Below, piece after piece: positions 7,068 to 61,882 of a DNA stretch of 64,000 nt (positions are counted from its first letter, which is position 1; each line of letters opens with the position of its first letter). The notes beneath the pieces were generated by a model, which was not told where the DNA came from, made no database searches, and was given only the letters and a program-made list of their open reading frames with translations. Origin of the DNA: Mesostigma viride (lineage: Eukaryota; Streptophyta; Mesostigmatophyceae; Mesostigmatales; Mesostigmataceae); contig RPFO01001848.1 of NCBI GenBank assembly GCA_009746045.1, positions 1 through 64,000 on the forward strand. Direction: 5' to 3'. A program made the position numbers and the translations under genes.

Positions 7068-7571
7068 TTATCCCAACAATTGACGGGTTAGAGGCGCCTT
7101 GTATTTCGTGTACCTGTCCACGCACACCAACAGTTGCATGCCCCTGATGTGTTGGACATCACACTGCAGATCACCAATGCTCTGAGGTAGAGTTTTGGCA
7201 TGTGATTTCCTGGGCTTGTTGGAGGACAACTGGCACTTACACCGTGAGGCAGCTTGCTGACACGCCTTAAGAAGGGGTGCCCTGCCCATACGGAAGGCAA
7301 AGTTGTTTGACAGAGAAGTGGCATGCCCAAACATGTTGTGGATTCGGGCACCCAACTCCTGGTACACAGAGGAAGCAGTCCCTGGCACAGTCAGGACTGT
7401 GCTGTCAGGTTGTCCAGCATCACCATGCTGACTTCCATCCTGTTCTGACTCAGAGCCTGAGTCACCCTGCTCATGCCCAACACCTGGACCGCCAGCAGGG
7501 ACCACATGCATACCACCAGAGGCCTTCACACCCCTCTGTGGTTGTACATTGGTTTCTCTCAAAATGAGAGG
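7068..7571 (-). pseudogene. Cop-B copia integrase fragment (host of nested Cop-A)
   Basis: The frame at 7068-7562 encodes a low-complexity start, then an integrase zinc-binding segment (H-x4-H in ARIHNMFGH, then CKC), then the first catalytic Asp region (IGDLQCDVQHIRGM, LLVCVDRYTKYKA). It stops at the left edge, so the rest of pol is lost. Its gag lies at 13945-15057 on the other side of Cop-A, which split this element. The last five bases, AGAGG (7567-7571), are the target duplication of Cop-A. Confidence 0.7.
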
Positions 7572-7916
7572 AGTTAATGCCCGACCGGCTCAGCTATGGC
7601 GGTCGGTCACGTTGAGCTTGGGATAAGGTGAACACAGAGAACTACTGTCGGAGCTGGCCCACCACTGGTTTATGTCTTAGCCAGCAAACCCTATCCGGTT
7701 AGCCGTAACCGTGGGACAAGCTAGCCGTCCGTACTGACCCGGATAAGGCCCCGGACTGGGGCCTAGGTGGCGCCGGCCCTAGGCGCCGCCCTTAGACCGG
7801 TCGCCCGCATCGGACCGCCGGATTATAGCCGGCGGCTGAGCGGACGCTAGCGGATGGCGTGCGGACGGACATGGGGAACTCAGAGCCAGATCCTAGGGCT
7901 CTAGAGTTACTCAACT
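7572..7916 (-). repeat. Cop-A LTR (3' LTR)
   Basis: 345 bases repeated at 13376-13720. I found no difference by reading both copies. The ends in element sense are AGTTGAGT...ATTAACT, so they lack the usual TG...CA. Both LTRs are flanked outside by AGAGG. Confidence 0.9.
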
Positions 7917-8292
7917 CCGACATACTCTTTTGTTCTTTGATTAATTATCAAAATTTACATCAAATGCAGATCATACAAAACCCTCTAAGGTAGGGAACTC
8001 AAGGGGGCCTCAAGGCCGTCAAAATCACCACGGTATCGACCCGCGCCCTTGTGATCACACATGAATAGTGATGTAATAAGTAGCGAGCAAAAAAACAACT
8101 ATGCCACCAGACAAAAGGTGACCCATTTATTAGGACCAGTGACCCGCCGACGGGCCCAAGGCACCGTCCAACGTGGCTAGGGTATGGTCAGGACAAGCAA
8201 AAAAACTACCACCATGATATTCGTGAATGCTAGCAACACAGGGTGAGTTATGGCTGTATTCATAAAGCGCCCGAGCCGTAACCCTGTGTGGC

Positions 8293-8900
8293 TCACGGGT
8301 GTTGCATCGTCATGCGCTTGCGCAACACTGCGTACTGCGGGGCAGCCTCCCGCGCCTCCTTGGTGAGTGCATCCGCGGGATTGAGTTCATCCGCGATGTG
8401 CTGGAGACGCGTGACGCAGGAGGCCGCCTCAGCGAGTACGAGGTAATCAACGTCCTGTGACCGCGCATAGGGATTGTCAAGGAAGGCCAAACAACTTTGT
8501 GAGTCAGTGTGCACCGTGCTAGTCCAGTGAAGAGTGAACCCACACGAGCCAAATACCCAACCCAGCAAGTACCGCAGCCACATGCCATGTGAGATAGCTG
8601 AAACAATGCCCCGGCATTCAGCCGTGTTGGGGCTAGTGGCAATGCGGCTGTGCAAGCGCGAGTACCAATCTAACAACATGCCAGGCTGCCCTCATTGCTG
8701 ATAAAGAACAGTGCCCCCATGCGGGCCCGCACTTGGCTGACTGTGCGCGTCTCTAGATTAGCATCCGTCACTATCTCGAGGTGCACCGGCTGTGAGCAAT
8801 CGAGCCCACGAAGCACAATGCCGGGCGTCATGGCCAGCTGCCGCCGAACATGAATGGACCCTAGTCCTTCCAGCACATCATCGGGCAGGCGAGCGAGCAC
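8293..8900 (-). CDS. Cop-A RT C-terminus and RNase H, two frames
   Basis: Frame 8670-8900 continues the RT connection region (LPDDVLEGLGS, VTDANLETRT). After a one-base shift near 8685 the frame to 8293 gives the RNase H: NTAECRGIV (Glu), HTDSQSCLAF (Asp) and NPADALTKEA (Asp). These are the copia RNase H residues, so the domain looks catalytically complete. The shifts near 8890 and 8685 break an otherwise fresh element. Confidence 0.82.
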
Positions 8901-10609
8901 GCCAAATCAGGTGCCACCGTGTCCGCCAACCACCCGAGCTTGCCCTTAACCGAGGGCCCATGGGTTGCCAACAGCGGGGACGGGAGGTCGGCCAGCAGGT
9001 CAACCACATAGTTGCGGCTATCCTGCATGTGCATGACCCATTCGCCAGAACGCGAATCCCGCTGCAACGTAGACTGCACGCCGCAAAACACCACGGGTTT
9101 ACCCTCCTCATGATCCACCGCCCTGCCCAGGGGAAACTTAGCCGCCACTGCAGCAAGAAACTGGGTAGCAAAGGTGCGAGGTGCCACCAGCTTGAAGTCA
9201 TCGCCATGCCACACGAAGAGGGCTGGCTCGCCAGGGACGCCGGTGGGGACCACAAAGAAGTTAGGATCCGCGCGATGGTACGTGGCCCCTAAGCTCTGCA
9301 AGACCTCCTCCGCGGAAATGCGGAAGATGATGGGAGAGCTCTGCAGCCCCTCCACCCCTGTCAACAGCTCGATATACTCGCTGCCAATGGTGCCATCCTG
9401 CCAGACCACCGGGACCTTCACCACGTAGCGGGTGCCTTGCCATGTTTGCTGCGCGACCCCAGCGTCGCTGTGGAGGAATGCCCGCTGAAAGTCACCGCAC
9501 CACATCCCGTAGTCCTTGCCCGCGTTCCGCTTGCCCAAGTAGATGACCGTCAGTAGCCGATGCGAAACATGGTTGAGCCCAGGGGTATAAAGATCCTTGG
9601 CATCCAGCGGGGAGGACCCCTTCGTCTCCGTGACCACGGGCCTTACCCGGAACACCACCGAAGAGTTGGTCTCGTCCGGCTTGTAGGTGAGCACGAACTT
9701 CAACCGCAACCGCGTGGCCCCGGCTGGCACACTCTCCAATCCTCGGTAGACCTCGCGCTCTCGCCACTGCTCCTTGGCTCGAATGAACGCGTCGCGCCAC
9801 AAAGCAAACTTGAGAGGATCTTGACAGTCCAGGACAAGTTGCTCCCACGTCACAGGGCTATCCGCCGCCAGTGAGTGTGAGTGGAGGCCGAAGCTGCGCG
9901 GGTGCCAATCCTGAGGCTGAATGATGGACTGGACGAGCGGCGGTGTGGAAAACGCCGCCATCGGTAAGCGCCGCACGACGCCGGGCTGCCCGACCACCAC
10001 CCCCAATGGAGCGTGGTACTCGCGAAGCGGGATGCTGCCCACCCCCGCGACTGACAGCAAGTCAGCGGACACTGAGAACCCCGGGTATGATACGAAAGGT
10101 TCGCCCAGCAAGGCCACATCCTCGTAGCCATCCACGACGTGAAACGGCGTGTCAATGCCCAACACCGGCAGCACCACCATCCCGGTAACTTGATATGCCG
10201 AAGTGCCTGCAAAGTCGGTCACCGATTTGTACGGCGACTCTAGCACTGGATACAGGGTGGCTGCCCGACGAGAGATAATAGACACGGATGCTTGCGTGTC
10301 CACAGCCACCAGCTGCCACGGTCTACACGTAGGAAACAAGGCTGACTTAACCGGCCTGACCCCCTGTGAGAGAGTTTTGACCTGAGCCACCCCTGATGCA
10401 GCTTTCGCTTTAAGCGCCTGAGCACGCCACAAGGCCGTGACCGTTGAAGCCAGGTCCCTAGGTGGGCGAGGCGCATGGGCAGGACCCTGACCCTCCGGCG
10501 AGGCCACGCTAGGCGGGCCTCCCACATTATCCGTGGCTAGCACAGGAGGTGAGTCACTACGTGCACTAGGTCCCGTCAAACCCACCCCATCCTCATCCCA
10601 CCCATCCAC
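8861..10609 (-). CDS. Cop-A aspartic protease plus reverse transcriptase
   Basis: A 582-residue open frame. Residues 100-180 are retropepsin-like: hydrophobic run then VDTQASVSII (103-112), TDFAG, VLPVLGI and ALLGEPFV (166-173, the position of the usual LLGRD). RT follows: LRLKFVLTYK (about 301), DFQRAFLHS (373-381, first Asp), GLQSSPIIF and WHGDDF (467-472, the two catalytic Asp, 9197-9211). Two oddities recur in Cop-C: the protease lies after integrase, and the RT box has H-G in place of Y-V before DD. The protease triad reads DTQA rather than DTGA. Confidence 0.85.
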   Translation of the reverse strand: MDGWDEDGVGLTGPSARSDSPPVLATDNVGGPPSVASPEGQGPAHAPRPPRDLASTVTALWRAQALKAKAASGVAQVKTLSQGVRPVKSALFPTCRPWQLVAVDTQASVSIISRRAATLYPVLESPYKSVTDFAGTSAYQVTGMVVLPVLGIDTPFHVVDGYEDVALLGEPFVSYPGFSVSADLLSVAGVGSIPLREYHAPLGVVVGQPGVVRRLPMAAFSTPPLVQSIIQPQDWHPRSFGLHSHSLAADSPVTWEQLVLDCQDPLKFALWRDAFIRAKEQWREREVYRGLESVPAGATRLRLKFVLTYKPDETNSSVVFRVRPVVTETKGSSPLDAKDLYTPGLNHVSHRLLTVIYLGKRNAGKDYGMWCGDFQRAFLHSDAGVAQQTWQGTRYVVKVPVVWQDGTIGSEYIELLTGVEGLQSSPIIFRISAEEVLQSLGATYHRADPNFFVVPTGVPGEPALFVWHGDDFKLVAPRTFATQFLAAVAAKFPLGRAVDHEEGKPVVFCGVQSTLQRDSRSGEWVMHMQDSRNYVVDLLADLPSPLLATHGPSVKGKLGWLADTVAPDLACSLACPMMCWKD

Positions 10610-11656
10610 GGGGTCATATTGGGGCCCAGGGGAGGGGGGGGTGTAGCTGTGTCTGCCCCTGGGAGCGACCCGTGGGGTACCACCTCAGATGCTACGACAG
10701 GCGCATTATCCTTCACTACCCACCCCAGTGCCCTGTTGGCTGCCAGCTCACTCTCCATGCTATCCCCTTGCTTATAGCCTGCCACCGATGCCCATGGTAC
10801 CCTATACACCCGATCATTCCACTCTATGTCTATGACCCGCAGCGGCCAGTCTAACTTTGTGATGGCCCCAGGCCCCTGCATGGTGCCCCGTTTGCCGCTG
10901 GGCGAGCTCTCCTTGTGGAACATGACCAACTGCCCGACCTCAAAAGCGCTAGACAAATCAGGCAGCGTGGCATCCTTGAGCCGCAGCTTGGCGGCGGTAT
11001 CCTGTAGATGCTGTTGGTATGCCTCTACTACCTCGGGTGAGTAGGTGCCCGCTGACAGCCCCCGAGGCGTGACTAGCCCAAAGCCCTTGACATCAAGCAC
11101 GTGCCTATGGTTGCACACATGCATGAGCTCCTTGCACCACGCCGTCTTGACCGCGTAGGATTTGCCATGTGGGTTATCCTGTCGCTTGGCTGCCACAGTC
11201 TTGACATAGCTTACAGTGCGATCTATCATGCCCATATTGCCGTGATCCTCACGCCCCACGATGACCACGGCCTCCATCCCCGGCAAACCTTGCACACAGC
11301 GGAACTGCTGGTCTAGCATGAGCTCCACTACGGGATGAAAGAAAGCCAGGCTGATCTTGATAGCCCTGTGCAGGTCAGCCTCAACATGTGGGCAGCGGCT
11401 CAATGTAGGTGGCCTTGCTGAACCTATCCTTGACTATGAAATAGGTGTCCCCCCCTTCCATGTGCATGACATCCCCCACAAGGTACCCTCGCTCCAAGGG
11501 TGGAGTCTTGGCATGCCGCCTACGCGACTTCTTCCTGATCTTGATGCAGGCAGGACACTGAGCACGCACATTCTTCAGCTCGTTGTATAAAGGTGCCCCC
11601 AACATGTGTGCCCCCTCTACCTCGGCTTGGGCCTCATGCCCGTATGCACGGTGCAT
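10576..11656 (-). CDS. Cop-A integrase, two frames
   Basis: Frame 11381-11656 has the zinc module H-x4-H (HRAYGH) and CPAC, then GDVMHMEGGDTYFIVKDRF with the first catalytic Asp. A one-base shift near 11395 leads to frame 10576-11403: DQQF region (second Asp), then EDHGNMGMIDRTVSYVK, where the third acidic residue would be Asp; Cop-C has IIERAI with Glu. The C-terminus (FEVGQLVMFHKE..GPGAITKLDWP) resembles the SH3-like GPY/F module known from gypsy integrases. It lies between gag and protease. Confidence 0.78.
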
Positions 11657-11673
11657 CTGGTATGCTAACAGTT

Positions 11674-13356
11674 TCAGGGTGACAGCCTGAGGTGCAGTGG
11701 CATTGTCAGGTTCTCAACAGGTGGGGTGACTACTGGGGTAGTGACATTGGCTAACTGGGCAGCTTCAGAGGCTGCACGAAAGGCCGCCCGTGTGAGCACC
11801 TTGCCAATGTGAAGATCCACACTAGGGTGGTGTGTACCGAGAACATCTGCCCGCCCAGCATTCTCTTGCACTGTCACAACATTCCTCATAGGCCCAACCG
11901 CCCCAGTATCTAGCTGGGGTGCTGCAGTAGTGCTTGGTCGCTCGGCGTTGTACACACCCGACCTAGAAGACACCACATTGCTTAGGTCACGCATTGTAGA
12001 CCCGTGCTCAGGAAGCACGTGATCCTGGCGCGACAGAGCCAGAGCAGCATCAACGGATTGCGTGAGCACATCACGGAATGAGACAGAGGATGCAGTCACG
12101 TTGCTTTTAGGAACGACGTCAGGCTCTACGACGGCCCGGTTCAGCGTGACGCATTGAGCAAAAGAAGGGGTATCGAGCGTGCTCTCACCTGACTTTCGTG
12201 CTGCCCGTCGCTCTGCCCACTCCTCGCGTGTGCCGTGGACGACGATGCGCTTGGCCTTGCACGCCTCCACGCTGTGACCACGCAGAACGTCGTGGCACTT
12301 GCGGCAAAGGTTGTCCTCGAGCTCCAGGTCCGGGCGAACTCGGCAGTCATCCCGGACATGGCGACGTCCGAAGCAGCGCTCACAGCGTTGCTTGCGGTCA
12401 GTAGACGCCCCCTGCTGCCGCTTGGCCGGGGGATTATCACCCTGCTTGGCGTCGCCACCATGCCCGCGCTTGCGCCCTCGCTGGCCCCCGTTGTTGCCGT
12501 GGCCGACGACCTTTTTCAGGATGGCCGTAAGCTCCGACCGCGTAATGGGAGCCTCTGCGCCTGAAGAAGAAGACGCGCCGGCATCCACCTTGCGCAGGGA
12601 TGGCAGAGCAGCCGAGGCAGCCGGCTTGGACTGCGCACTCTTGAAGCATGAAATCAAATACAGCATGCCCTCGTCGAAACTGACGGCACTCTTCTTTTTG
12701 AGTTCCGTCGCTATGGTCAGATGCACATCCGACGAGAGGTCGCATTTCTTGAGAAATCGATTGCACAGGAAAATGGGCTTGAGAGTATCTAGCAGCTTGT
12801 GCTTGTGCACGAAGACCTGGAAATCACGTGCAGCCCCGGGCAAATTTGCCTTATTAACTGCATAGCCCTCGAAGTCGTTGAAGGCTTGCTCGTCGGCCTC
12901 TTCCTTAGACCGCGACAAGTGGGCATCTAGACCGTTGTAAAAAACTTCCCAGGTTTGTTTGTTGTCGTCCGCAATGCGAACTAGATTGGCAATGTTTGGG
13001 TGCTTTGTTGTACTGCAGAATACTGCACGGAACTTGCCAATCAGCTCCGAATCTTTGTCTGCGCGTCCATCGCGCAGACGCTTGAGAGCAGCTAGAAAAT
13101 CTGCTGCGTCGTCCGCCGTATAGTCGGCCGGTAGATCTGCGGGCACCTCCGTTTGCTTGAGAGGGCCGCGATTTAGTGCATCGTCAGCAGCCAGCATGAG
13201 ATGCTTGAACTGCTTGGCCAGTTCCGGTTGCGCCACGAGGGTTTGCATCAACCTCGTGGCCTCGTCCGCACTAAAGCGTGGCAGGACGGACCCTGCGGCC
13301 TCGCCACTTGGCGTATCTGTGTGTTCGCCCGTGCGGCTCCGTGTACCGGAAGCCAT
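11674..13356 (-). CDS. Cop-A Gag, 560 aa, two zinc knuckles
   Basis: The ATG at 13356 is 19 bases inside the 5' LTR. The helical capsid-like part runs to about residue 260. A basic GQRGRKRGHGG tract is followed by two knuckles: CERCFGRRHVRDDC (CX2CX4HX4C) and CRKCHDVLRGHSVEAC (CX2CX6HX4C). About 170 disordered residues follow. An isolated LDTGA near residue 475 lacks flanking protease features. The stop is at 11674; the integrase frame overlaps here in another frame, so translation of pol would need frameshifting. Confidence 0.82.
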   Translation of the reverse strand: MASGTRSRTGEHTDTPSGEAAGSVLPRFSADEATRLMQTLVAQPELAKQFKHLMLAADDALNRGPLKQTEVPADLPADYTADDAADFLAALKRLRDGRADKDSELIGKFRAVFCSTTKHPNIANLVRIADDNKQTWEVFYNGLDAHLSRSKEEADEQAFNDFEGYAVNKANLPGAARDFQVFVHKHKLLDTLKPIFLCNRFLKKCDLSSDVHLTIATELKKKSAVSFDEGMLYLISCFKSAQSKPAASAALPSLRKVDAGASSSSGAEAPITRSELTAILKKVVGHGNNGGQRGRKRGHGGDAKQGDNPPAKRQQGASTDRKQRCERCFGRRHVRDDCRVRPDLELEDNLCRKCHDVLRGHSVEACKAKRIVVHGTREEWAERRAARKSGESTLDTPSFAQCVTLNRAVVEPDVVPKSNVTASSVSFRDVLTQSVDAALALSRQDHVLPEHGSTMRDLSNVVSSRSGVYNAERPSTTAAPQLDTGAVGPMRNVVTVQENAGRADVLGTHHPSVDLHIGKVLTRAAFRAASEAAQLANVTTPVVTPPVENLTMPLHLRLSP

Positions 13357-13375
13357 CGGGATTTTTATGAATACA

Positions 13376-13720
13376 AGTTAATGCCCGACCGGCTCAGCTA
13401 TGGCGGTCGGTCACGTTGAGCTTGGGATAAGGTGAACACAGAGAACTACTGTCGGAGCTGGCCCACCACTGGTTTATGTCTTAGCCAGCAAACCCTATCC
13501 GGTTAGCCGTAACCGTGGGACAAGCTAGCCGTCCGTACTGACCCGGATAAGGCCCCGGACTGGGGCCTAGGTGGCGCCGGCCCTAGGCGCCGCCCTTAGA
13601 CCGGTCGCCCGCATCGGACCGCCGGATTATAGCCGGCGGCTGAGCGGACGCTAGCGGATGGCGTGCGGACGGACATGGGGAACTCAGAGCCAGATCCTAG
13701 GGCTCTAGAGTTACTCAACT
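13376..13720 (-). repeat. Cop-A LTR (5' LTR)
   Basis: Identical partner of 7572-7916. It is followed by the target duplication AGAGG at 13721-13725. Gag starts 19 bases inside it. Confidence 0.9.
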
Positions 13721-13944
13721 AGAGGTCCACCCTCGTGCCCAGCACGAGGATGCATAGGGTCAGACATACTTACAGCTGCATCAGCTGTCAAGGACGTCTT
13801 CATAGGAACCTGTACCTCTCCAGGTGACCTGGGGCCACCCTGAACCTGGAGATCACCCTCTTGTTGCCCAGATATAAAATCTGCATTGGAGCACCTGGCC
13901 TCCCCCCTGGGTGAATTAAGGTGTGTAGGGGTTGCCTCAGACAG

Positions 13945-15057
13945 TCATTGCTCCTTGTTGTCTTCTTGCTGACTGCCCTTTGAAGGCTGGCCCTGGGACT
14001 TGTTGTTGTTCTTCTTGTTGTTGTTGTTATTCTTGTTGCTGCCCTGGCCCTGGGACTTCTTGAAGCTGGGACACTCCTTCTTGATATGCCCCCACCCCTT
14101 GCACAGGTAGCATTGTATCTTTGACTTGCCCTGGCCTCCTCCCCCGTTGTCAGGCGCGTTGCCCTGCTTGGGCTTACCACCCACTCGCCTGAACACCGAC
14201 TTGGAGTGTGACCTCCTGTCAGAGTCGGGTGAATGATCGCCCTTGCGCTTGTTATGGTTGCCCCCTCGTCCTCCCTGGCTTCTGTCAGCCTCAGACGTCT
14301 TGGAGCCCCCTTGGGTACGCCCACCTGCGTGGGTAGCCTTCACTGCTGGCACTCCACCCTCAAACAGCTCCTCTGCCTCGAGTGCTTGTTTGATTATGAC
14401 CTTGTAGGCCTTGAGGGTTGAGTGTGGGGCACACATGACCTTTAAAGAGCCACGTGTAGCCTTATCCAGCCCAGAGACCTTCAACCAGTTGGTCAGGGCT
14501 ATGTTATCTGCCACATTGAAACCGTGGGCCCTGCCTTCCTCAACCATTTTGCAATAGCTAAGGAAATTCTGGATGAGATCTCCCTTGACCTCCCACCCTT
14601 GATACTTGTCTTGCCAATGGATGCCGACCTTCTTTCGCTGGTCTTCAAGCAACTCCTTCAGCTCAGCTACATACACTGCCCAGGCCTTGTTGGCCTTCTT
14701 GCATTCCCTGGTTAGGTCCTTGATCTGATCAGTGCACTTGCCAAACGTGCTGCTGCCTATCCAGATCTGATAGTAGTTGGTACCCCCGTACAAACTAGGA
14801 AACCCTTCCAGCCCTTCTACAAACTCTTCAGCCTGCTTAGGCTTAGAGTCAGATGTCACAGGTTGCAGCTGATTTACAATTAATAATCCCTGAGTGGTAA
14901 GGTCAAAACCATGAACAGCTTGTGCATTATTATTATTGTGATGAATGTTGGTAATCTCTCCGGTAACCCCCACGTCATCTACGTGAGCGGTCCCGCTACC
15001 AGCACCCCCATTATTATTCCCACTGGCTAGGCCCTTGCTACGGCGTCCCTCAGCCAT
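13945..15057 (-). CDS. Cop-B Gag, 370 aa, zinc knuckle and Asn-rich tail
   Basis: The ATG at 15057 gives MAEGRRSKGLASGNNNG. The middle is helical (QIWIGSSTFGKCTDQIKDL; NWLKVSGLDKATRGSLKVM). A basic GGRTQGG/RSQGGRGG linker leads to the knuckle CYLCKGWGHIKKEC, then an Asn/Lys/Gln-rich tail. It is the gag of the copia whose integrase lies at 7068-7562; Cop-A inserted between them (13721-13944 is the intervening non-coding or frame-broken part). A TTTTGTTTTCCAG just upstream (about 15095 in minus sense) resembles a splice acceptor. No LTR is recognisable to the right. Confidence 0.75.
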   Translation of the reverse strand: MAEGRRSKGLASGNNNGGAGSGTAHVDDVGVTGEITNIHHNNNNAQAVHGFDLTTQGLLIVNQLQPVTSDSKPKQAEEFVEGLEGFPSLYGGTNYYQIWIGSSTFGKCTDQIKDLTRECKKANKAWAVYVAELKELLEDQRKKVGIHWQDKYQGWEVKGDLIQNFLSYCKMVEEGRAHGFNVADNIALTNWLKVSGLDKATRGSLKVMCAPHSTLKAYKVIIKQALEAEELFEGGVPAVKATHAGGRTQGGSKTSEADRSQGGRGGNHNKRKGDHSPDSDRRSHSKSVFRRVGGKPKQGNAPDNGGGGQGKSKIQCYLCKGWGHIKKECPSFKKSQGQGSNKNNNNNKKNNNKSQGQPSKGSQQEDNKEQ

Positions 15058-15178
15058 GGTAAACCACACTAGCTGTGTACAGCCCTGAGCTAAGCAGCTG
15101 GAAAACAAAAACAGGTAGATATGTACAATCTGTCAAAAAGCCGCCTGCTCCGGTGCCGACCGCGCCACCATGCCGAAT

Positions 15179-42724: not shown

Positions 42725-43589
42725 TTCTATTAACCGTGGAGCTCCAGGGTAACCAGACTCTTTATTAAAACAATGAGTGGAGCACATACAAAAGGCAGGC
42801 CACATCCGGGCCGCCGATGCTCATGGGAACACTTATTGCTTGGCAAAGGCTATAGATAGCCTTACCCCCAAACACGCACACAGGGAGGGTGGGCGGGAAA
42901 AGAAAAGAGGCCGACCTTAGCTATAGGTGGGTTTGTTTTTGTCCTTTTTTGCGTGTCATGCGGCCTTGGCCCGGACGGCATTTTTTCACCACGCAAAAGT
43001 TGCGTCTGAACAAATGACGCAATGTGGCGTTCTAATTGCCGGCAGCTTACGTAAGGCTGCCGGGGCTATTAGGTCACATATTGCGTGAGAGAAGGAATCT
43101 AGATCTAGTTAATCACTATGCCATCAGCCAAGAAACCTAGACAGTGGCAGGTTAATATCTCAACGTAGCTCCTGCCACCTGGCAAAGAAAAACTGGCCAA
43201 AGTTTTGGCCACGACTGATCCGGATCTGGCCGCACCGGCCTCAAAAGGTATGTCACGTGAACCCAATACAACCTAGCTATAGCGGCTACCTGTAACCTAG
43301 CTATAGCAGCTACCCTTCCATCTCACTATAAAGAAACTATGTTCAGAGAACCGCGATTCTATTAACCGTGGAACTCCAGGGTAACCAGACTCTTTATTAG
43401 AACAATGAGTGGAGCACATACAAAAGGCAGGCCACATCCCGGCCGCCGATGCTCATGGGAACACTTATTGCTTGGCAAAGGCTAGCCTTACCCTTATATC
43501 CCTCCCTGGCGATCCATGCCAGGGGCAAAGAACCTAGCATAATGACATAGAAATAAACAACCAAACTAGGAGGATGGCAATTTCAAAAT

Positions 43590-44619
43590 AGCCCGCCAGG
43601 CCCGAGGGGGGCAGGCGGCCATGGCCCGAAGAAGAACCTCAGGAAACTCCACCTCCAAACTGCGGTGCAAGCCCACATAGTGGGCAACCGTGGAGCTGCT
43701 AAGCTAGCGCCCCCGGCCCTGGATGTCCCCCATGCTGCGACCCTCGAGGAAATCATGAGTGGCACCCCCATGCCGCAGCCCGTGAATGGTGAAAATCTGG
43801 GCGACCCCCAAGGCCTGAGTCGCAGCCTGCCAAATGCGCCTGAATTGCGGGTAGGTGAAAGGGAACACGGCCTCCCAAGCGTGCTTACCCGCGATGCAGT
43901 GACGGAGGATGGTTTCAGACATCACATCTTCTACCACCACTGACTGAGTCTTGCCCTTAGAGGTCTTGGTAGACCTCAACAGCTAGTAGGGCGCCCCGTT
44001 GAGCCGGCCCAAGCCGAACGTCAGGGCGCTGGAGGCGCACATGGCCAACACGGAGGTTCAGCGCCTCCGACATTCGCAGGTAATGGCGGAACATGATGAC
44101 CACCAGCAGGCCCGCAAGGCGCTGACCTTGCATGACCATTGTGCTGGCAAGTGCAAACGCCGCCTCCCATGGAATGGGAGGAGGGGCACGGGGGGGCACA
44201 AGTGTTTTCCACCCAGCGAGGATGCCACGGGCCAAGTCCCACCGCTTCACCATACCGGGATAATAAAGTTGCAACCCCATCAAGGCATTGACACACGTCT
44301 GACGGCTGTATCCCCGAAAATGAGCCCAGGCGACATACGCACAAAATGTCTCCTCAAGGGTGTCAGCTCGTGACGATGACCTGTCCGCCCGCCCACCAGC
44401 CTCCCACCAAGTCAAGAGGGAATCAAGACCACGACGGTAGGCCAGCAAGGTAGCCGGCTTTACTTTCCCCTCTAGCAATGATGGAAGGTAGCTAACAGGT
44501 GCAGGGGGCCCGGCCTGGGTTAGGATGGATGCCTTCCGCGGCCAGGTCGCGCACCCAGCCTGCCAAGAAAGTCGCCATGGATTGGCCGCGAGAAACGCCA
44601 TCGGCTGGTTGAAGTGCAC
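43590..44619 (-). pseudogene. SDR-A tyrosine recombinase, stop at the catalytic Trp
   Basis: R1 block HYLRMSEALNL, then HGLRHGGAT (H-x-x-R), then GRGR followed by TAG where SDR-B has Trp (GRW), then STVAHYVGL with the nucleophile Tyr. The N-terminal SAM-like part (KVKPATLLAYRRGLDSLL) is in the upper frame. One frame change near 43970 and the stop near 43706 inactivate it. Confidence 0.75.
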
Positions 44620-45773
44620 TCGGCGTCCACACCCACTGGGAACGACTCCCAGTGGCGAGGGTCAGCGCGCACAAGCGGCGGCACTGCTTGTTGAGCTTGT
44701 GGAATGAGGACCGCCCCTTAGCCAAGCAGCCCAACGCCGCGGTGGAGTCCACCAACCTCACCACCCGCTTGCCTCGGTTTGCCAAGCTGCGCGCACTCCT
44801 CTCCACGCCCAATTCACTGCAGCCCGCACCTCCTTCTCGTTGATGTGCATCCCCGGATCCCGATAACGACTCCGGACCCCAACCCGCCATTGCTGGCTAG
44901 TGATAATTTGCTTGCATGTTGCGCTCGCGTGCTCAGTGGCCGAGGGCCAGCGTAGGCCACCTCGCTTGGTATGAGCAAAGTCGGGGACCCCCGCACCTCT
45001 CGTGCCCTCGCCAGCTCCGTCACATCGCACGGCTCCATGGTTGCGTACACGACACCTTGCCCGTAGGTGGACGCGTCAGATGCAACCATGCACCTCACGT
45101 GCCAAAGGTGCGCTTCGGACAACCCTTAGCATGGGAGCCAAGGCCAGGGCACACTCTAACTCCTCTCGCACCCCGGCCCACATCACCCAGGATCGCTGCC
45201 CCCACCACTCTTGCAGGCTGATGAATTTGAAACATTGCTGCCAAATGGACAAGCAGCTGCGGCTTAGCATCTGCAGCCACAACCATGCACCGCCCCAAGA
45301 TGGCATGCAGCCAGCCCCTCGGCCGTAGCTCGGCCTCGAGTGAGTATAGCCTGCGTGTGGGCGATCACAAGGTTGAGCTGCTTGACCGTTGGTTCCAGCA
45401 CGCCGTTCCGTCGGTGCACCACCCCTAGGGCTTCTAGCTCGTCCTCTTCCAGGCTCGCCATCTTAGTCTTCTCCTTAGACGGCACAAGGTTGTTAGGGAG
45501 GTAGCCTTCCTCAATAGCGCGCGTGATGAGCTGGTTCACCGCCTCGCAGGTCCGCCCGTTGCTGGCCACCAAGCCATCAATGGTGATGGACAGCATGGGG
45601 GCAGGGGGGTTTTCCAGGTCAATCTGAAGCTCCCCGGCGCGCTCCTCCTTGTACTCGATGGCCAAGCGCAGCGGCTGGCCACACTCATCGCGCACCAAGG
45701 TGAGCTCACCTGCGCTTGAGAGGTAGTTGACCTGGCGCCTCGGATCCAGGGCACCGGTCATGTAGAGCACCAT
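44492..45773 (-). pseudogene. SDR-A RT C-terminus and RNase H
   Basis: RT: MVLYMTGALDPRRQVNYL, LSITIDGLVASNG (second catalytic Asp changed to Gly, near 45573), AVNQLI, ALGVVHRRNG. RNase H: VASDASTYGQGVVYA, HINEKEVRAAV, RLVDSTAALGCLAKG, ADGVSRG, the DEDD-type residues. Frame shifts near 45300, 45020 and 44830. Confidence 0.72.
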
Positions 45774-46322: not shown

Positions 46323-47302
46323 AACTCCCATTATGTATGTTTTCCTTTCAGGTTGAAGGCTAGCGACTTCAAGCCTGATCCTGCCCAGCTAGGAGACTGA
46401 CTCCAAGCTGACTGAGGTGCTGAGCAACTGACACCCATACTGCAACATCTGGACTGAAAAAAAAATGGGCCCCAGAACTCGTGCAATACTTCTGGTGGCA
46501 TCAAGTTTAGCTCAACAGACCCGGGGAATTCCTCCTCCTCGTGAGCCCATAAGGGAGATAGCCATGCCTGCTTGCCTGTCCAGGGAGTGCTTCACCAGCA
46601 AAGAGAGCCACTGTCAAAAAAAATGCCAAGGTAAACCGTTTAAGAGGTCCCATGTTGTTCCATCATCATCGCCCACTCAGAAAACAAAGCACCCAGCCAG
46701 GCTGGGGCAACTGAGCTCAGGTCACCTGCAACCTGAGGAGTGACAGTAGCCAGGTTTATTGCACCCTGAACTGTCCACGTTGCACCTGCACAACGTGTGA
46801 GGACCAGCCATCCCTGCCCTGCACAGTGATGGCTGAAGTCCTGGTGACAGGTGACAGGAGTATTACATCCTGTACCTGGGCTGATCACATTGTGCAAAGA
46901 CAACATGACAGCACCCATGCCTTTACTGCCACTGAACAGTGAGGCCAGGTGTCCCAGGAAACCCACAGTGAACTGGGGTCCTGGAAAACCACCTGTCAAG
47001 GGAGGTTTGACCCTCCACTTGAATGGAGGCACCTGAGCCACTGAGCTCAAGGCCTATGTATCCACCAAGGCATACAACCCTAATGGACAATGAGAGTATG
47101 ATACATCCCCTGCCCACCTATGAAGGTGAGCAGCACGAAATTCCATGGTGTGTGAAAACATCAAAAGACTTTATTGGCATAGGGCACGCAGATGCATAAA
47201 AACAGACTCCAACCAACCCCGCTTACTGGAAGCACAACCTGCCCCTTGGACCTGCCCAAGGAGTACTGGGTTACCTAGGTGCCCCTGGTTAACAGGGACC
47301 TG
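46323..47302. other. Non-coding stretch left of Cop-C
   Basis: Contains TTTTCCTTTCAG (acceptor-like) at about 46341-46352, and in minus sense AATAAAG near 47170, a plausible 3' end for Cop-C transcripts. The 46640-47050 minus frame has no known domain. No LTR pair with the right side of Cop-C is evident. Confidence 0.35.
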
Positions 47303-48566
47303 CTAGGCGTCCCCCCGATGGAGCAGGGCTGCCTGCTTGCCATACGGGTTCATCAGGTGGTACAACAGCTGATACTGATCAGCTGCCTGCTGAGGCACTT
47401 TAGTAAGTGCATCAGCAGCGTTGTGCTTGTCCTCCACGTGACGAGTGGACTCCCAGTAGGTGGATTCCTGTTTAAGGACCACCCAATCAAGATCAGTGTG
47501 CACAGCATAGGGGTTAGCAAGGAAGCTGAGGACTGACTGACTGTCAGTGAGCAAATGTGCAACCACCCCAGCGCTGCTGCCTGCTTGCATCTGCAACCAA
47601 ACCAGCACATGATTCAAGTATCTTGCATGAAGCACTGCTGACACCACTGCCCTGCACTCAGCAGCATTGCTGCTGACAGCCTTGCGTCTATGCAACCGGC
47701 TGTACCATGAAATGAGAGACAAGGGTGCATCATCATTCTGTACAAAATACAAGCCTGACTCCCTTGCCTGCAACTTGGTGATCTGCCTGGACTCCATGGA
47801 ACTATCCATCATAGCTTGGATGTGAATTGTTTTGTGGAGATCCAAGGAATGCAAGATAAGGGGAGGGCCTTCCTGGAGAGTTTTGGTGATGGCTTTGTGC
47901 CCTACTTGCATCAAGACATCATCATCAACTCTGCTATGTAACCACAGCCAGGTGAGGTGCACATGTTGAGCACAACCACCCCAGCTTGCCTCTAATGGTG
48001 GGACAGGCACCAGGTTTGATTTTTGTTTGCAGAACCTCCGAGCAGCTATGCATGTAATCAGTGGGAGAGTAAAGTGCACACACCCACTGGCTGTCATGCT
48101 GCTGGAGTTGTAACATTGTGCCACAAAATTTTATGGCAGTGGTGCCCAGCTCTACTTGCTTGCCAATCTCAAAATGCTGTGACACTTGCTGAATAAAATC
48201 ATCTACAGCACGCCTTGGCCCAGCAATCAGCTGATCATCCCCATGCCACACAAATGTGAGCATGCCATGAGGGTGAGGGACCACAAAGAAGCAAGGGTCT
48301 ATGTCATCATATCTAGCCCCTAGCTTTTCAAACACTGCCTGAGCTGACATCCTGAAAATGCGAGGGGCTGATTGCAGCCCTTCAACACCTATGTTAGCTT
48401 TCAGGTACTGCTGAGGGATGTGTTTTGCCCAAACTCTGGGAGTGGAGACTACATACACCTGACCATGCCACACTTGTTGTGCTATCTCAGATGAGCCTTT
48501 CAAGAAAGCCCTTTTAATGTCTGTAGCCTTGCATATATAATCATCCCCATCATTGAGATGACCCAC
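47303..48566 (-). CDS. Cop-C RT palm and RNase H
   Basis: Two frames. 47934-48566: DDYICKATDIKRAFLKG (first Asp), GLQSAPRIFRM, FVWHGDDQLIAG (catalytic pair, 48234-48248). 47303-48124: connection, then NAAECRAVV (Glu), LTDSQSVLSF (Asp), DKHNAADALTKVP (Asp). The RT box is W-H-G-D-D as in Cop-A. The N-terminal RT half is separated by a MITE at 48567-48878. The stop is at 47303. Confidence 0.8.
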
Positions 48567-48878
48567 AGTTACGTTAAATAGTGACGGAACCTTTTGCCGC
48601 CTGAGGCAAATCGGTCCGTAACACTATTTTGCCCGGAATAACCACTTCCGAGCACCCAAGTTAATTCGGCCGAATGAACTTGGGTGCTCGGAAGTGGTTA
48701 TTCCGGGCAAAATAGTGTTACGGACCGATTTGCCTCAGGCGGCAAAAGGTTCCGTCACTATTTAACGTAACTAAAACCTGGCCTCGTGGAGGGGGGACGA
48801 AGAGCCCGAGACATCCGCCTAGGCCGCTGAGCACCCAAGTTCATTCGGCAAAAGGTTCCGTCACTATTTAACGTAACT
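48567..48878. mobile_element. 312-bp MITE with 206-bp internal palindrome, TSD CCCAC
   Basis: Flanked by CCCAC (48562-48566 and 48879-48883). Both ends are AGTTACGTTAAATAGTGACG and its complement. The left 206 bases (48567-48772) are an almost perfect palindrome centred at TTCGGCCGAA (48665-48674). The right 106 bases repeat the outer 34-base end and the GAGCACCCAAGTTCATTCGG block. Precise removal rejoins the RT frame (LLSVFVG to HLNDGDD). Superfamily uncertain; 5-bp duplications are unusual for common DNA transposons. Confidence 0.82.
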
Positions 48879-49300
48879 CCCACAAAGACAGACAGCAAAA
48901 TTTTGAGAGAGGTTTGCTGAATGCCTGGCGTGTACAGCCCTGCTTCTGTCAGATCAGTGGTGCCCTTGAACTCTGTCACACAAGGTCTAGCATGAAAAAT
49001 AACTAACCCATCTGCTGCTGGCTTATGTTTACACACAAACTTCAGGCGCAAGTGCTTGCACCCTGCAGGCTTTTTGTCAATAGGTGTGACAGGTGGAGTG
49101 TGAGAAGGACTAAGGGGATCTGGCACTACCCATTCTTCCCTGGCCTTGTTGAATGCCTCCACCCATTTTAGAAAACCTATGTGTGTGCGACAGTCTTGCT
49201 CTATCTGTTCATAAGAATGAGAAGACATTTTAGCCACATCATGCTTGCCCAATCCAAAGGATGTTGGATGAAGTTTTTGATTATGAACCAAGTCTGCCAC
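48879..49300 (-). CDS. Cop-C RT N-terminal half
   Basis: LRLKFVCKHKPAADG and HARPCVTEFKG match Cop-A (LRLKFVLTYKPDETN; RVRPVVTETKG), followed by LYTPGIQQTSLKILLSVFVG (Cop-A LYTPGLNHVSHRLLTVIYLG). The frame ends where the MITE enters. 49301-49395 links it to the protease frame with a shift. Confidence 0.78.
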
Positions 49301-49395
49301 ACAAGGTTCTTGCCCTGGAGCATACTTGGGGGTAGCAAATTTTACAGAAGCAATGTTGGTTTGAATAAGTTTTTGAAGAGGAGTTTTGAAATGAT

Positions 49396-50406
49396 TCAGA
49401 TCAACACCACCCAGGTCCTGGATGGCCAGTCCGTATCACTGGAGATAATGACACCAGGGTATAAGAGAAAGGGATCACCCAACAAGGCATTACCTTGATA
49501 ACCTTCCAATACCTGGAAAGGGGTTGGGATACCAAGTATAGTCAACATTACCTGACCTTGTACCTTGAGTGATGACTGCCCTGAGAAATCAGCCACATGG
49601 TGCCAGGGTGAAGGTTCCAAAGGCAAATGGGGCACAGCCAGTGCACTAATAATGCTGACCTGGGCTTGTGTGTCCACTGCAACCAAGAATGGGCTATTGT
49701 CATTCTGCCCAACCTTACCCACCTTAGCTGATCCTGCAGCAGTTTGAGCTTTAGCTCTATGAGCTGATTGTAAAATGCGGACAGCTTCTGCTAGGCTGCG
49801 TTTGGAACGTGCAGCTAGTGGCTGAGCGATGTCCACAAGTAAAGAGGTGATAGGTTGCTGATCACCTGTTTTGCCAATGTGACCCTCTGCTGCAGGGGGC
49901 CAAGCCTGCAGTGACTGCTTGCAATCATCAAGGGTGACCTGGGTGTCACAGTGGGTGTGGCTCTCACACTCATCAGTGGGTGTTCCAAACAACCACTCAC
50001 TGGGCAACGCTGGGATGCCAGGCAATTGTACAGGGCTGTCGGCCAACAGCTCTTCCTCCTCTGCCACGTCTGACACAGTTGGAAAATACAATTTCATCCT
50101 GTGAGGTGAACACCTGTGAACCTTACCCGTGTCATTGTGTTTAACCTGCACTGTCCTGCCAGTGGTGTTAAACTTTAGGATGGTGGCTGGCCCATGCCAG
50201 GTACCCACCTTGCCTAGTCCCGACTCCTTGTAGAAGAGGACCTGATCCCCTTCTCTGAAGGTGGGACGTGGATGCTTTGCATCCTTGACAGCTAACCTAG
50301 TAGCTGTATGTGCTCGCTGTGCGTTGTATAGGGCTAATACCTCAGGTGGATAGATGCCTGCATGCAATCCATCTGGTGCAATGACCACCCCTTGTGGGGT
50401 TTTCAT
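49396..50406 (-). CDS. Cop-C integrase C-terminus and aspartic protease
   Basis: A 336-residue frame. Residues 1-110 are the integrase C-terminal part with FREGDQVLFYKE (50-61), GTWHGPATILKF (68-79) and VHRCSPHRMKLY, an SH3/GPF-like module. An acidic linker follows. Residues 240-320 are the protease: LVAVDTQAQVSIIS (241-254), VADFSG, VMLTILGI and ALLGDPFLLYPG (307-318). So protease lies between integrase and RT, exactly as in Cop-A. The triad is DTQA in both. Confidence 0.82.
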   Translation of the reverse strand: MKTPQGVVIAPDGLHAGIYPPEVLALYNAQRAHTATRLAVKDAKHPRPTFREGDQVLFYKESGLGKVGTWHGPATILKFNTTGRTVQVKHNDTGKVHRCSPHRMKLYFPTVSDVAEEEELLADSPVQLPGIPALPSEWLFGTPTDECESHTHCDTQVTLDDCKQSLQAWPPAAEGHIGKTGDQQPITSLLVDIAQPLAARSKRSLAEAVRILQSAHRAKAQTAAGSAKVGKVGQNDNSPFLVAVDTQAQVSIISALAVPHLPLEPSPWHHVADFSGQSSLKVQGQVMLTILGIPTPFQVLEGYQGNALLGDPFLLYPGVIISSDTDWPSRTWVVLI

Positions 50407-50528
50407 GAGTGGCCTCCTGTTGAGGACTTGGCACAGCCTGGTGGACCACAGGGCTCTGTCAGCATATGACCCACTGTCAGCCAGCAGATTACCATCTTCC
50501 TTGCATGGCTACAAGGGTTTTAATGGAC

Positions 50529-50960
50529 CTAACTAATAGCCCGTTCAATGATGCCTTGCCTCTCATGATCTTCTAGCCCTGCCAGATCAATAGCCTCACA
50601 CCCTGGTTCATTGGCAAGACACGTGAGCTGTTGATCCAGTAATAATGCCTCCACAGGGTAGTACCTGGCCTGAGCAATCAAGAGAGCCCTGAGCAACTGT
50701 GTCTTGTCCATTCCAGGTAATGGTTCAATGGTTGTGTACCTTGACCATGCATCTTAAAGTGCCAAGTAAGATTGTCCTTTTATATGAAAGACATCTCCTA
50801 CCACCCTGCCCTTGCACTTAGGTAAGGTAGCTACATGCCACTTAGGGGGTTTGGGTGCATTGAACTGACAATGCTGGCAGTGGGATCTGACCACCTGGCA
50901 AGCACGTCTGAGTGCTGCCCCCCCTATATTACTGCTGCCACCACCTCTGCACTCACCTCA
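50529..50960 (-). pseudogene. Cop-C integrase N-terminal and core, one in-frame stop
   Basis: SHCQHCQFNAPKPPKWH gives the CxxC of the zinc module; VVGDVFHIKGQSYLAL then TAA then DAWSRYTTIEPLPG is the first catalytic segment (stop near 50753). 50529-50711 reads LLLDQQLTCLANEPG (second Asp) and LEDHERQGIIERAIS with the catalytic Glu intact. The H-x4-H half is not clear. Confidence 0.65.
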
Positions 50961-52592
<1,632 letters not shown>

Positions 52593-52618
52593 AGGAGAGA
52601 CAGTTTGAGTGGGAGGTA

Positions 52619-54394
52619 CTACGTGGTGGGCTGAGCAGTAGGGACATGCATGGGCTGAGCAGGAGGGACATGCATGGGCTGAGTATGATGGGTGGGCTGT
52701 GTAGGGTTGTTAGTGTCTGTGCCTTCGTGCCTCCTGCTGCGGGCCTCCTCCCAGTCATGGAAGGTGGGAGAGAGAGACACATCATCGTCAGTAGTGTTAG
52801 TAATGTCATGGTGCAGCCAGGCAGGCAACAACCTACCAGCCCCTGCCAGGATGGCATTGTGCAGGCGCTCCAGGTGTCGCACCAGGCGCGCCCTGTGACC
52901 CTGGACCCTCCTCCCTGCAAGGAGGGCCTGCAGGGCAGGCAGCAGGGAGTCGCACACTGCACGTGTGTGCTCCTGGAGGTTGGGCAAGCCCAGCAAGTGC
53001 GTGATGATCGCACAAACCAGGCTGCCCGCCTCAGCGATGTGCAGCTGCTGAGTCCTGCCAGCCAGCCCGCGAAAGGATGCTGTGGCAGCCTCAATGGCCC
53101 GCCACACGTGCTCATCCCCCAGGGTGATCATGTCATCACCAGCCAGATCACCCTCCATCACCTCAGGCTGCTCCTGCGCCTGGGTGGGACCCGTGGGCCC
53201 GCCTTCCCCGGCCGGGCCCTTGTCCTTGGTGCGCCTGGAGGTGGCCTGCCCACCTGAGCTGCTGGAGGGGCCAGAGACGCCCTCCATGGGAGTTGCCTCC
53301 CCCGCCTGCGCCGTAGGCGCCGGCGTCGCTACCGGGGTCCCTGCAACCCCGGGAGCTGGCGTCGCCACCGGGGTCCCTGCAACCCCGGGAGCTTCGGCAG
53401 TCGCCTGGCCCCCTGCGCTGGGCGGGGGGGCCGGCTGCTGAGTGTGGGCCCTCTGACCTGCCAGAGGGCCCTGGGTGGTCTCACCACCCGGGGGTGTGTT
53501 GGGGGCGCCTGCCGCCCCGCTCCCAGCCGGAGGCGGCATCGCAGCCGCCTGGCTCCTCACGTCGCCCCAGCCAACTGGCGTGACCTGGGGCCACTGAGGC
53601 AACGGGGTGAAAGTCGCGTTCTCACGCTCTGCCACCACCTGAATCGCGTCCCGCTGACGCCGTTCAGACGCCCACTGCGCCACTGGCCCCGCACCCCAAG
53701 CCGCACCAGTGGCGTAACAGCGCATCCAGATCGCCACCTGGATCGGATGGAACTCCATCCGCAGCCGACGCTGGATGTGCCGTCTGAACAAAATGAGCAT
53801 CAAACGCCGACCCCGGTTCCTCAAAATTCAGTTGAAACCGTTGACGGAGATGCCACCCCGTCACCGAAATAAAATCCGGTATCTCCCCGAGGGGTAGATG
53901 GAAGGGCCGAAGCCCGAACTCGACGGGTGGCGGGACATGTTCGCCGAAGCGATCAATATCCATGGTGGCCAGCTGGCGGCCTACCGACAGGTTTCCCGAC
54001 GTAGCGGGAGTATGTGACGACACCTCGAGCGAGGGTCGCGGCCTCGCGGGCAGCACCTCCCCGTCCTCCTCAGAGGAGTCGCTACGCTCACGTCCCCCGC
54101 CACCTGCGACGGGGGCCTGTCACGTGCCCGGGGTTCCTGCACCCCGGGTGCCATTGCGGACGAACCGCCAGCGGCAAGCGTGCGACCTCTCGCCTGCCCC
54201 GGGGCGCCGGCACCCACCTGCGGGGTCCGACGCCTCGGGTTATCAGCAACCACCGTGCTGAAGGTGACATTTGGCGTCACCTGCACGGTGGCGGAGGGCG
54301 AACCCTCCGGTGAGAGCCTTGGGGAAGTGCGCCTGGTCGGCGCACGCCCCTTCTTGTTGGTGTTGGTGTTGCCAGCGTTGTTGTTGGAATCCAT
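52619..54394 (-). CDS. Cop-C N-terminal ORF upstream of gag, three frames
   Basis: The ATG at 54394 (MDSNNNAGNTNTNKKG). One-base shifts near 54060 and 53790 join three open frames into about 590 residues. There is a disordered basic start, LPLGEIPDFISVTGWHL, FHPIQVAIWMRCYA, a Pro/Ala/Thr-rich tract with tandem GVAGTPVATPAP units, and a helical C-terminus (LVCAIITHLLGLPNLQEH). It either continues into gag at 52592 or is a separate first ORF. No known domain recognised. Cop-A lacks such a region. Confidence 0.55.
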
Positions 54395-56243: not shown

Positions 56244-56622
56244 AAAACAAAAGAGACCGCCATGAGCTAGGTGAGCAAGCTTTTATCGTGTTTCAAGGCC
56301 AACGGCTCTCTACCAACGGCCAGATCCGGCAACGGCCTCTAAACAGTTTTAGCCGTCAAGTTTTACTTCAGATATTGCTTGTTGCAAACCCGTCCGCAAT
56401 CACAGATCTGCTAGGAGAACCTAGACGCAAAAATCCGTCGTCAAGGTACTCAGCACACCGTCAAGGTATGGGCCGCAACAATTAGGCCATATCATCCGTA
56501 ATACTCGTACACTAGAAGCCTAATCAACCTTATTACGATCACATCACCCAGCTCTATTTCACCTAGCATCAGCGGCTCCCCTTCCGTATCACTATAAAGA
56601 AACTATGTTCAGAGAACCCCGA
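56244..56622 (-). repeat. SDR-B A2 repeat
   Basis: 379 bases matching A1 at 63013-63391; few differences (for example ATGTTC versus ATAGTC near the end). Abuts B1 exactly at 56622/56623. Confidence 0.9.
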
Positions 56623-56755
56623 TTCTATTAACCGTGGAACTCCAGGTAACCAGACTCTTTATTAAAACAATAAGTAGAGCACATCGGGAAGTGGCCCTCA
56701 ACTGGCCATCCTTACCCATGGGAACACTTTATGTCCAAAAAGGCTAGCCTTACCC
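56623..56755 (-). repeat. SDR-B B1 repeat
   Basis: 133 bases matching B2. It lies directly downstream of the recombinase gene in element sense. Confidence 0.88.
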
Positions 56756-56831
56756 TTACATCCCTCCCTGGCGACCCAAGCCAGGGGCAAAACAAAAACC
56801 GGTGGACGCATAAGACAAGAATGAAGGGAAC

Positions 56832-57784
56832 TTAAGAGGAAGGCAGAGAAAAGACGCTCCGCCAAATGCGCGGGGGGCAGGCGGCGATAGCCCGAACCAG
56901 GGCGTCAGGAAGGGTGAGGGCCAAGCTCCGGTGCAATCCCACATAGTGGGCGACAGTTTTGCTGCTGCGCCAGCGACCCCGATGCTGAATATCAGCCATG
57001 CTGCGCTGCCGCAAAAAATCATAGGTAGCCCCCCCATGCCGCAGCCCGTGAATGGTAAACACCGTGTCGACCCCCAAAGCTTGCGTGGCCTGATGCCAAA
57101 CCCGGCTGAACTGGGCATAATCGTAAGGGAACACCCGCTCCCAGGCCGCCTTGCCACGCATACAAGCCCGCAAGAGGGTCTCAGTCATGACATCCTCGAT
57201 CACCACAGACTGCACCTCCCCCTTAGCCGTCTTAGCTGACATCAACAACAAGGCGCCCCGCTGCGAACCCCGCAACCGAACATCAGGCTGCAAGCGCACA
57301 TGGCCGACCAACAGGTTGAGCGCCTCCGATACCCGCAGGTATTGTTGGAAAATAACGATGACCATCATAGCCGCACGAGGCTGCCGCTGGAGCACCATAG
57401 TACAAGCAAGCGCAAACGCAGCCTCCCATGGAATGGGGGGGGGGCACGAGGGGGTGCCAACGTGCGCCAGCCAGCCAAAACACTTCGTGCCAAGGCCCAA
57501 TCCCGCACCTCCCGGGGAAAGTACAAATTCAGGCCCATAAGCGCATTGACACACAACTGGCGGCTGTAACACCGTGAGTGCGCCCAAGCGACATACTCGC
57601 AATAGTATTCCTCTATCGTCAAGCCGCGCAACAAGCTGCCAACCCGACCCCGCCGGCTCGCCCACCATGCGAAAAAGGACCTAAGGCCCCGATGGTAAAC
57701 CATCAAAGTAGCCGGCTTCACCTTGCCCTCAAGAAGGGTCAAGTAGCTAGCGCCAAGCCGAGGCCCGGGATTGGGATGAAACAC
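56832..57784 (-). CDS. SDR-B tyrosine recombinase
   Basis: N-terminal core-binding part (YLTLLEGKVKPATLMVYHRG; YSRQLCVNALMGLNLYF) in frame 57365-57784. A shift at a run of eight G near 57437 leads to the catalytic part: YLRVSEALNLL (Arg I), IHGLRHGGAT (His, Arg II), HRGRWRSS, and TVAHYVGL (Tyr). All residues of the R-H-R-Y set are present. Except for the homopolymer shift it looks functional; the homologous SDR-A gene has a stop at the Trp codon. Confidence 0.82.
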
Positions 57785-58628: not shown

Positions 58629-59253
58629 CCCATCCGCCGGTGAACAACACCCAGAGCTTCTAGCTCGTCCTCCCCCTCCGGGCTAGCCATGATCGTCTTG
58701 TCCTTGGAGGGCACAAGGTTGTTAGGCGCGTACCCGTCTTCAATAGCACTCGTGATTAAGCGATTCACCGCCTCGCACGTGCGCCCATTGCTGACCACCA
58801 GGTCATCAATAGTGATGGATACCATAGGGGCAGGGGGGTCCTCAAGGTCGATTTGCATCTCCCTCGTGCTCTCCTCCTTGTACTCGATGGCTAGGGCGGT
58901 TGGGTTACCCCATGCATTCCGAAGCACGGTCAGCTCCCCTACACTTGTGAGGCGGTTCACCTGCCGTCTAGGATCCAAAGCGCCCGTGGCATAGAGGACC
59001 ATCTCATGGATGGCTTCCCCTAGCGCTACCGCGTGGGAGTGCCCCATGGCCAGCACTTTCAGCACTGGCCACACCCTCCTCCGCCGCCCCGGCAGCCCGA
59101 CATCGGTGGACCACACATCAGGTAGCCCTTGATAATCCCACCACCACTCCGGCACTTGGATGGTATAGTAATACGAGACCAGATCGCTCTTGGCCGTGTA
59201 GCACCGACCCTTGATACAGACCTCCGAGTATATGCCCAGGTGGGGTAACACCG
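58629..59253 (-). CDS. SDR-B reverse transcriptase, main part
   Basis: VLPHLGIYSEVCIKG, AKSDLVSYYYTIQVP (first catalytic Asp), MGHSHAVALGEAIHEM, ATGALDPRRQVNRL and MVSITIDDLVVSNG (catalytic pair at 58802-58807), ALGVVHRR. The N-terminal part lies beyond the insertion at 61177-61818. The active site is T-I-D-D, not Y-x-D-D. Confidence 0.82.
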
Positions 59254-61818: not shown

Positions 61819-61882
61819 GTAGTGCCTAGAGGCATTGTAGGAAGAGGCAGTGGGAAGGGGGAGCGGTTTACCCTTTCGGTGT

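Follow-up and report, generated by a model that had tools for sequence, protein, structure and literature searches.

A stretch of 64,000 nucleotides from the streptophyte Mesostigma viride (GenBank assembly GCA_009746045.1, contig RPFO01001848.1, positions 1 to 64,000; hereafter the window) carries long terminal repeat (LTR) retrotransposons, here named Cop-A, Cop-C and Cop-E, in which the protease (PR) lies downstream of the integrase (IN). Domain and frame analysis of these elements and of their relatives confirmed that the order Gag-IN-PR-reverse transcriptase (RT)-RNase H (RH) is real and present in at least four families (Cop-A, Cop-C, Cop-D and Cop-E) of one genome. In our view the elements very probably descend from copia-type LTR retrotransposons and carry a relocated protease; they would be expressed and mobilised by the scheme described below.

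Domain order in four element families

In Cop-A, the domains Gag, IN, PR block, RT and RH follow one another on the minus strand, spread over several frames (Table 1), as the initial annotation of the window had proposed; the order is borne out both by the domain positions and by the natural frames of other copies. That annotation had also found the same order in Cop-C and taken two copies as excluding a rearrangement. The order does hold for Cop-C, but both window copies are frame-broken and therefore insufficient alone to prove it, and the proof comes from other copies. A search of the 440-Mb assembly, from which all nucleotide copies described here derive, recovered same-order copies of all four families, a check that the initial annotation had proposed; the counts below are lower bounds because only the best candidates were scored, and the content of long frames was read at the named loci. 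In the Cop-C family, frames of at least 1500 codons occur in 7 of 111 rows of the genome table, and the longest, a natural frame of 1826 codons at locus L040, runs through Gag, IN, PR and RT, with RH cut by an insertion. Cop-D carries a 1249-codon frame in 13 of 71 rows, and at both L038 and L039 this frame has the order IN-PR-RT-RH. The same order is encoded in Cop-E by a 1208-codon frame (31 of 150 rows), which at L047 is preceded by Gag in phase before a TGA, and the L047 protein gave the Pfam match rve (E 0.039) upstream of RVT_2 (E 4e-6) in a single frame. For Cop-A, an 898-codon frame at L031 contains most of Gag and all of the integrase and shares a 106-nt overlap with the PR-RT frame, while a 797-codon frame beginning before PR is present in 59 of 72 rows, the one read continuing through RT and RH. 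Identity across the four families is 31-48% in IN, 37-50% in PR and 32-48% in RT-RH. As a control, three ordinary copia elements from this genome (L041-L043) showed Gag-PR-IN-RT-RH (judged by eye, with Pfam for L042).

An artefactual origin of this order, whether from misassembly, chimeric copies or frame disruption, is barely credible. Both window copies are broken, the break sites vary among copies and a single assembly was used; against this stand the unbroken natural frames in three families at many loci and the purifying selection over the IN-PR stretch, for which the window Cop-C and L040 gave a dN/dS of 0.17. Nor was any retropepsin detected between Gag and IN in the stretches examined in Cop-A, Cop-C and Cop-D; a normal protease there in full-length relatives would, by the initial annotation, have refuted its reading. 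A diverged protease hidden there, which would make the block after IN a second, accessory retropepsin, is very improbable. Cop-A does have 208 amino acids between the start of its last Gag knuckle and IN, with one DTG triplet among them, but the corresponding stretch of Cop-C is just 86 amino acids, knuckle included, too short for a usual retropepsin and devoid of D[ST]G. The Gag and Pol frames read in Cop-D also lack D[ST]G (that Gag copy has frame breaks), and the stretches preceding IN in Cop-A, Cop-C and Cop-D (117 amino acids of the Pol frame in the last) gave no profile signal. Elsewhere, a single DSG occurs within low-complexity sequence in the Gag-IN stretch of Cop-E, and in Cop-C a D[ST]G triplet lies inside IN.

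The relocated protease and the affinities of the domains

The block between IN and RT had been called retropepsin-like, and this was corroborated by modelling: the Cop-A model (pTM 0.62) predicts a retropepsin fold, all 50 Foldseek matches shown being retropepsin entries, and the blocks of Cop-C, Cop-D and Cop-E align to that of Cop-A. An earlier model, built from a six-row alignment on the PR-RT-RH part of P0002, a protein 100% identical to frames in the assembly, had a mean pLDDT of 37. The active-site triplet is DTQ in Cop-A and Cop-C, DTM in Cop-D and DTN in Cop-E, never D-T/S-G, and the Cop-A DTQ codons GACACGCAA were kept in all 30 loci fetched for the codon and run check, the window copy included. 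In these triplets the lineage differs from Ddi1 and the retroviral retropepsins, which it resembles in predicted fold and at flap and LG positions. The four-family PR profile matched gypsy/bacterial-type retropepsins at E 0.0003 (probability 40%, 86 of ~97 columns in register) and copia PR at E 0.34, with five unrelated control sets at E 0.24 to 0.64. The sole protease hint from Pfam was gag-asp_proteas, not Pol_BBD, whose match coincides with the protease of a local copia control. Weak as these statistics are, they suggest that the relocated PR is nearer to the gypsy/Ddi1 type than to the local copia type, a likeness that in turn suggests replacement of the copia protease.

The RT-RH part is clearly copia-type by sequence comparison. 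Its profile matched ordinary copia RT-RH at E 1e-14 (probability 98%, 443 columns), whereas the RT had no match to gypsy RT (E 0.17). The Pfam check envisaged in the initial annotation succeeded in part: apart from rve in L047, RVT_2 was found in Cop-C (E 5e-5) and Cop-E (E 6e-7), in both below the curated cut-off, but not in Cop-A or Cop-D, and scanning the Cop-A frames against Pfam and NCBIfam returned nothing useful. No relevant match came from PDB profile searches, whether with the full alignment or with PR, IN or RT-RH. In the integrase, whose N-terminal part in Cop-A aligns in register with the three other families, the H, H, C, C, D and D positions are invariant, the Cys pair of Cop-E being irregular; the zinc module was found where it had been placed, near 11640. 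The third catalytic acid is D in Cop-A and Cop-D and E in Cop-C and Cop-E, and by hand count 29 residues, not 35, separate it from the second D. The GPF-like C-terminus noted earlier holds as a motif resemblance by eye but lacks Pfam support.

Compared with Ty1/copia (Pseudoviridae; here L041-L043), the lineage shares the RT-RH type, an IN upstream of RT, a Gag with CCHC knuckles and a 5-bp target duplication; it differs in having PR after IN, in a PR that is apparently not of the Pol_BBD type, in the spacing of the IN acids, and, in Cop-A, in LTR ends that are AGTT...AACT, as fixed by the flanking duplications, and not the TG...CA of Ty1/copia. With Ty3/gypsy (L044, L045) it shares a PR that resembles their gag-asp type, weak IN similarity (E 0.0008) and, by eye, the GPF-like IN tail, but the gypsy order is PR-RT-RH-IN, whereas here IN precedes an RT without a gypsy match.

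The domain might be a pseudoprotease, its retropepsin fold kept for assembly or dimerisation without cutting, with a host protease cutting instead or processing unneeded. We hold this unlikely, though a serious candidate. The third triplet residue (Q, Q, M, N) is never the G of the consensus D-S/T-G-A, as that motif is given in the available part of the source (PMC6952103). Yet the Asp and Thr, along with a number of flap and LG positions, are invariant in families as diverged as these, and the ordinary copia elements L041 and L043, both with long open frames, themselves carry the protease motif DSA (the third local copia element has DTG), so non-glycine residues may be tolerated in this genome. 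Moreover, the single pair compared, window Cop-C and L040, gave dN 0.030 and dS 0.363 in PR (dN/dS 0.08), so that the domain is under purifying selection in that pair. Because of this selection and of the invariant D and T, the relocated domain probably still works as a protease. An internal rearrangement, in which the copia protease itself moved and was not replaced, also appears doubtful to us. The copia-type RT-RH counts for it, since a copia protease was probably once present, and the profiles are shallow: by the same method, copia PR and gypsy PR, which are true relatives, match at just E 0.021, so that kinship could be missed, a point that weighs against our assignment to the gypsy/Ddi1 type. 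The opposite argument is made by the PR profile, which matched the gypsy/bacterial type and not copia PR, and by the Pfam hint.

Searches of a 5.8-billion protein set, with ~8,000 candidates scored per search, returned P0001, P0002 and P0003 only, and an IMG/VR search with P0002 gave no match. P0001 and P0002 both bear the EukProt label Mesvir1, which we read as Mesostigma viride, and a protein of that set has 98% identity to the Cop-A frame. P0003, which carries the label Prorocentrum lima, matches P0002 at 100% identity along its full 72 amino acids and may represent contamination, which we favour, or a recent transfer. A separate retropepsin-like DTG frame with an N-terminal hydrophobic stretch was seen at L046 (C2011:489300-490300), a 1-kb piece without retroelement parts that is possibly a bacterial contaminant.

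Element structure, expression and priming

Cop-A is a complete LTR element, in which the initially annotated 8293..13356 is right for the coding part and the full element with LTRs extends over 7572-13720. All five Cop-A copies in which both LTR starts were located have matching 5-bp flanks. Seven longer copies were picked from the 72 rows and fetched with flanks; both LTR starts were seen in four, with the flanks GTCCT, GGCCC, CGACT and GGGAT, the last of which lies inside a GGGAT array and offers little proof.

The 106-nt overlap of the integrase and PR-RT frames, in -1 relation, was observed in all seven fetched copies, and the C8T run within it in 30 of 30 loci, which is weak evidence because the copies are nearly identical; no RNA structure exceeding that of shuffled sequences was found behind the run. 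A programmed frameshift inside IN was rejected, because some copies lack the break and its position is not constant. In Cop-E, Gag and Pol share one frame with a single TGA followed by C between them (L047 1911-1913; window 13945-13947), a possible case of stop-codon readthrough. Under the scheme we propose, LTR-driven transcription would be followed by synthesis of Gag-IN and longer precursors, with PR reached in a single frame in Cop-C, past the in-phase TGA that ends Gag in Cop-E, and through a -1 change from the IN frame to the PR frame in Cop-A. If programmed, the Cop-A change at or near the C8T run would put integrase at the level of Gag and leave just PR-RT-RH to a rarer product, unlike any copia or gypsy element known to us. 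The relocated retropepsin would then dimerise and cut the precursors, and IN would insert the cDNA, duplicating 5 bp of the target. As to origin, the likeliest course is that the copia protease ahead of IN was lost, that a retropepsin of the gypsy/Ddi1 type was acquired between IN and RT, and that its catalytic triplet changed from D-T-G to D-T-[QMN].

Immediately downstream of the Cop-A 5' LTR, at the primer-binding position, lie 12 nt that are the exact complement of a 12-mer in the element's own 3' untranslated region (UTR); 12-mer partners exist for 8 of 5447 Cop-A body positions, self-palindromes included. In Cop-D (L038, 1657 and 6715), the 10 nt after the 5' LTR likewise pair with the element's 3' UTR, and between Cop-A and Cop-D the pairing differs on both sides at one position (TGTATTCAT/ATGAATACA vs TGTATTCAC/GTGAATACA). 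This complementarity in two families fits a candidate element-encoded primer or a 5'-3' cyclisation signal. No tRNA was found within the window. A bolder combination, in which a foreign retropepsin replaced the copia PR between IN and RT and works without the glycine held essential (D-T-[QMN]), Cop-A makes its integrase at Gag level and the primer is encoded in the 3' UTR, strikes us as improbable when taken as a whole.

Table 1. Coordinates in the window of Cop-A, Cop-C and Cop-E features.
Feature	Position	Strand	Remark
Cop-A 5' LTR, 345 bp	13376..13720	-	345 bases identical to 3' LTR; AGAGG flank
Cop-A 3' LTR, 345 bp	7572..7916	-	coding-strand termini AGTT...AACT
Target-site duplication AGAGG, 5' side	13721..13725	.	
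Target-site duplication AGAGG, 3' side	7567..7571	.	
Cop-A 12 nt directly after 5' LTR, primer-binding position	13364..13375	-	exact complement of 8255-8266
Cop-A Gag frame, stop to stop	11677..13377	-	ATG at 13356
Cop-A Gag zinc knuckles (two)	12343-12384, 12259-12306	-	
Cop-A integrase, N-terminal part	11384..11713	-	zinc module H-x4-H, C-x2-C and first catalytic Asp
Cop-A integrase zinc module	H pair 11636-11653, C pair 11546-11557	-	
Cop-A integrase catalytic positions	first D within 11450-11476, second 11302-11322, third 11209-11229	-	
Cop-A integrase core	10579..11433	-	second Asp; third acid is D
Cop-A integrase C-terminal GPG/GPF-like segment	10852-10881	-	
Cop-A integrase/PR-RT frame overlap, 106 nt	10579..10684	-	-1 relation; C8T run at 10634-10641
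Cop-A retropepsin-like domain, D-T-Q	10055..10321	-	VDTQ 10292-10303, ALLG 10091-10114
Cop-A reverse transcriptase (approximate)	8864..9853	-	HGDD within 9194-9217
Cop-A RNase H	8296..8906	-	two frames in window copy; unbroken in P0001
Cop-A 3'-UTR 12-mer	8255..8266	-	complement of primer-binding position
Cop-E Gag (element split by Cop-A)	13948..15132	-	ends at TGA, Pol frame next in phase; intact relative L047
Cop-E integrase, N-terminal part, other side of Cop-A	7071..7571	-	
Cop-C window copy (broken)	46797..54394	-	extent by DNA similarity to another copy
Cop-C Gag knuckles	51325-51351, 51222-51266	-	
Cop-C integrase	about 50131-51008	-	
Cop-C protease	49438-49704	-	
Cop-C reverse transcriptase	about 47937-49435	-	
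Cop-C RNase H	about 47306-47947	-	

Cop-A itself sits in a Cop-E element of the same lineage, a nested insertion with Cop-E sequence on both sides (7071-7571 and 13948-15132). The Cop-C window copy, annotated initially as 47303-52592, is longer by DNA similarity, and no LTR-like repeat pair was found around it. Its RT contains a 206-bp near-perfect palindrome (48567-48772), related copies of which are nested repeatedly in the RH region of L040, so the palindromic insertion looks mobile; its Gag (51293-51706) has long GK and poly-Asn runs from microsatellite-like expansion; and close to what is presumed to be the LTR end of the family there is a TTGTATTA...TAATACAA-like hairpin (L040 about 127-148; window about 63615-63640, minus strand). 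The window also holds another LTR-like pair of 282 identical bases (56244-63312) and a related fragment, 71-75% identical, at 43295-45738; the three frames tested there had no Pfam match.

Novelty and meaning of the order

Superfamily sorting of LTR elements rests on domain order, and to our knowledge no other known order has IN before PR. The initial annotation had regarded the arrangement as undescribed, and no Gag-IN-PR order was found in the literature searched, most subscription journals and Repbase reports being outside its reach. Among LTR lineages, relocation of the integrase is documented for the Gmr1 elements, gypsy elements with a copia-like IN position, for which the accessible text mentions no change of PR (PMC2774666). 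The two papers on the Mesostigma genome refer to LTR elements, but the portions available mention no such order (PMC6947507, PMC7027972). According to the accessible part of a reference plant survey, Ty1/copia is classed by the order Gag-PR-IN-RT-RH, and elements of unexpected order were removed in every case as likely mispredicted (PMC6317226); lineages of this kind can therefore be lost by design. Since Pfam barely sees these elements, annotation pipelines may also miss or mislabel them.

The elements work like copia but fail the order that defines copia. With four families and many copies in one genome, they show that such an order can be both stable and mobile. They offer a natural test of why the protease normally precedes integrase and RT, with the constraints of processing order and stoichiometry that this involves, and of whether a retropepsin triplet really needs its glycine.

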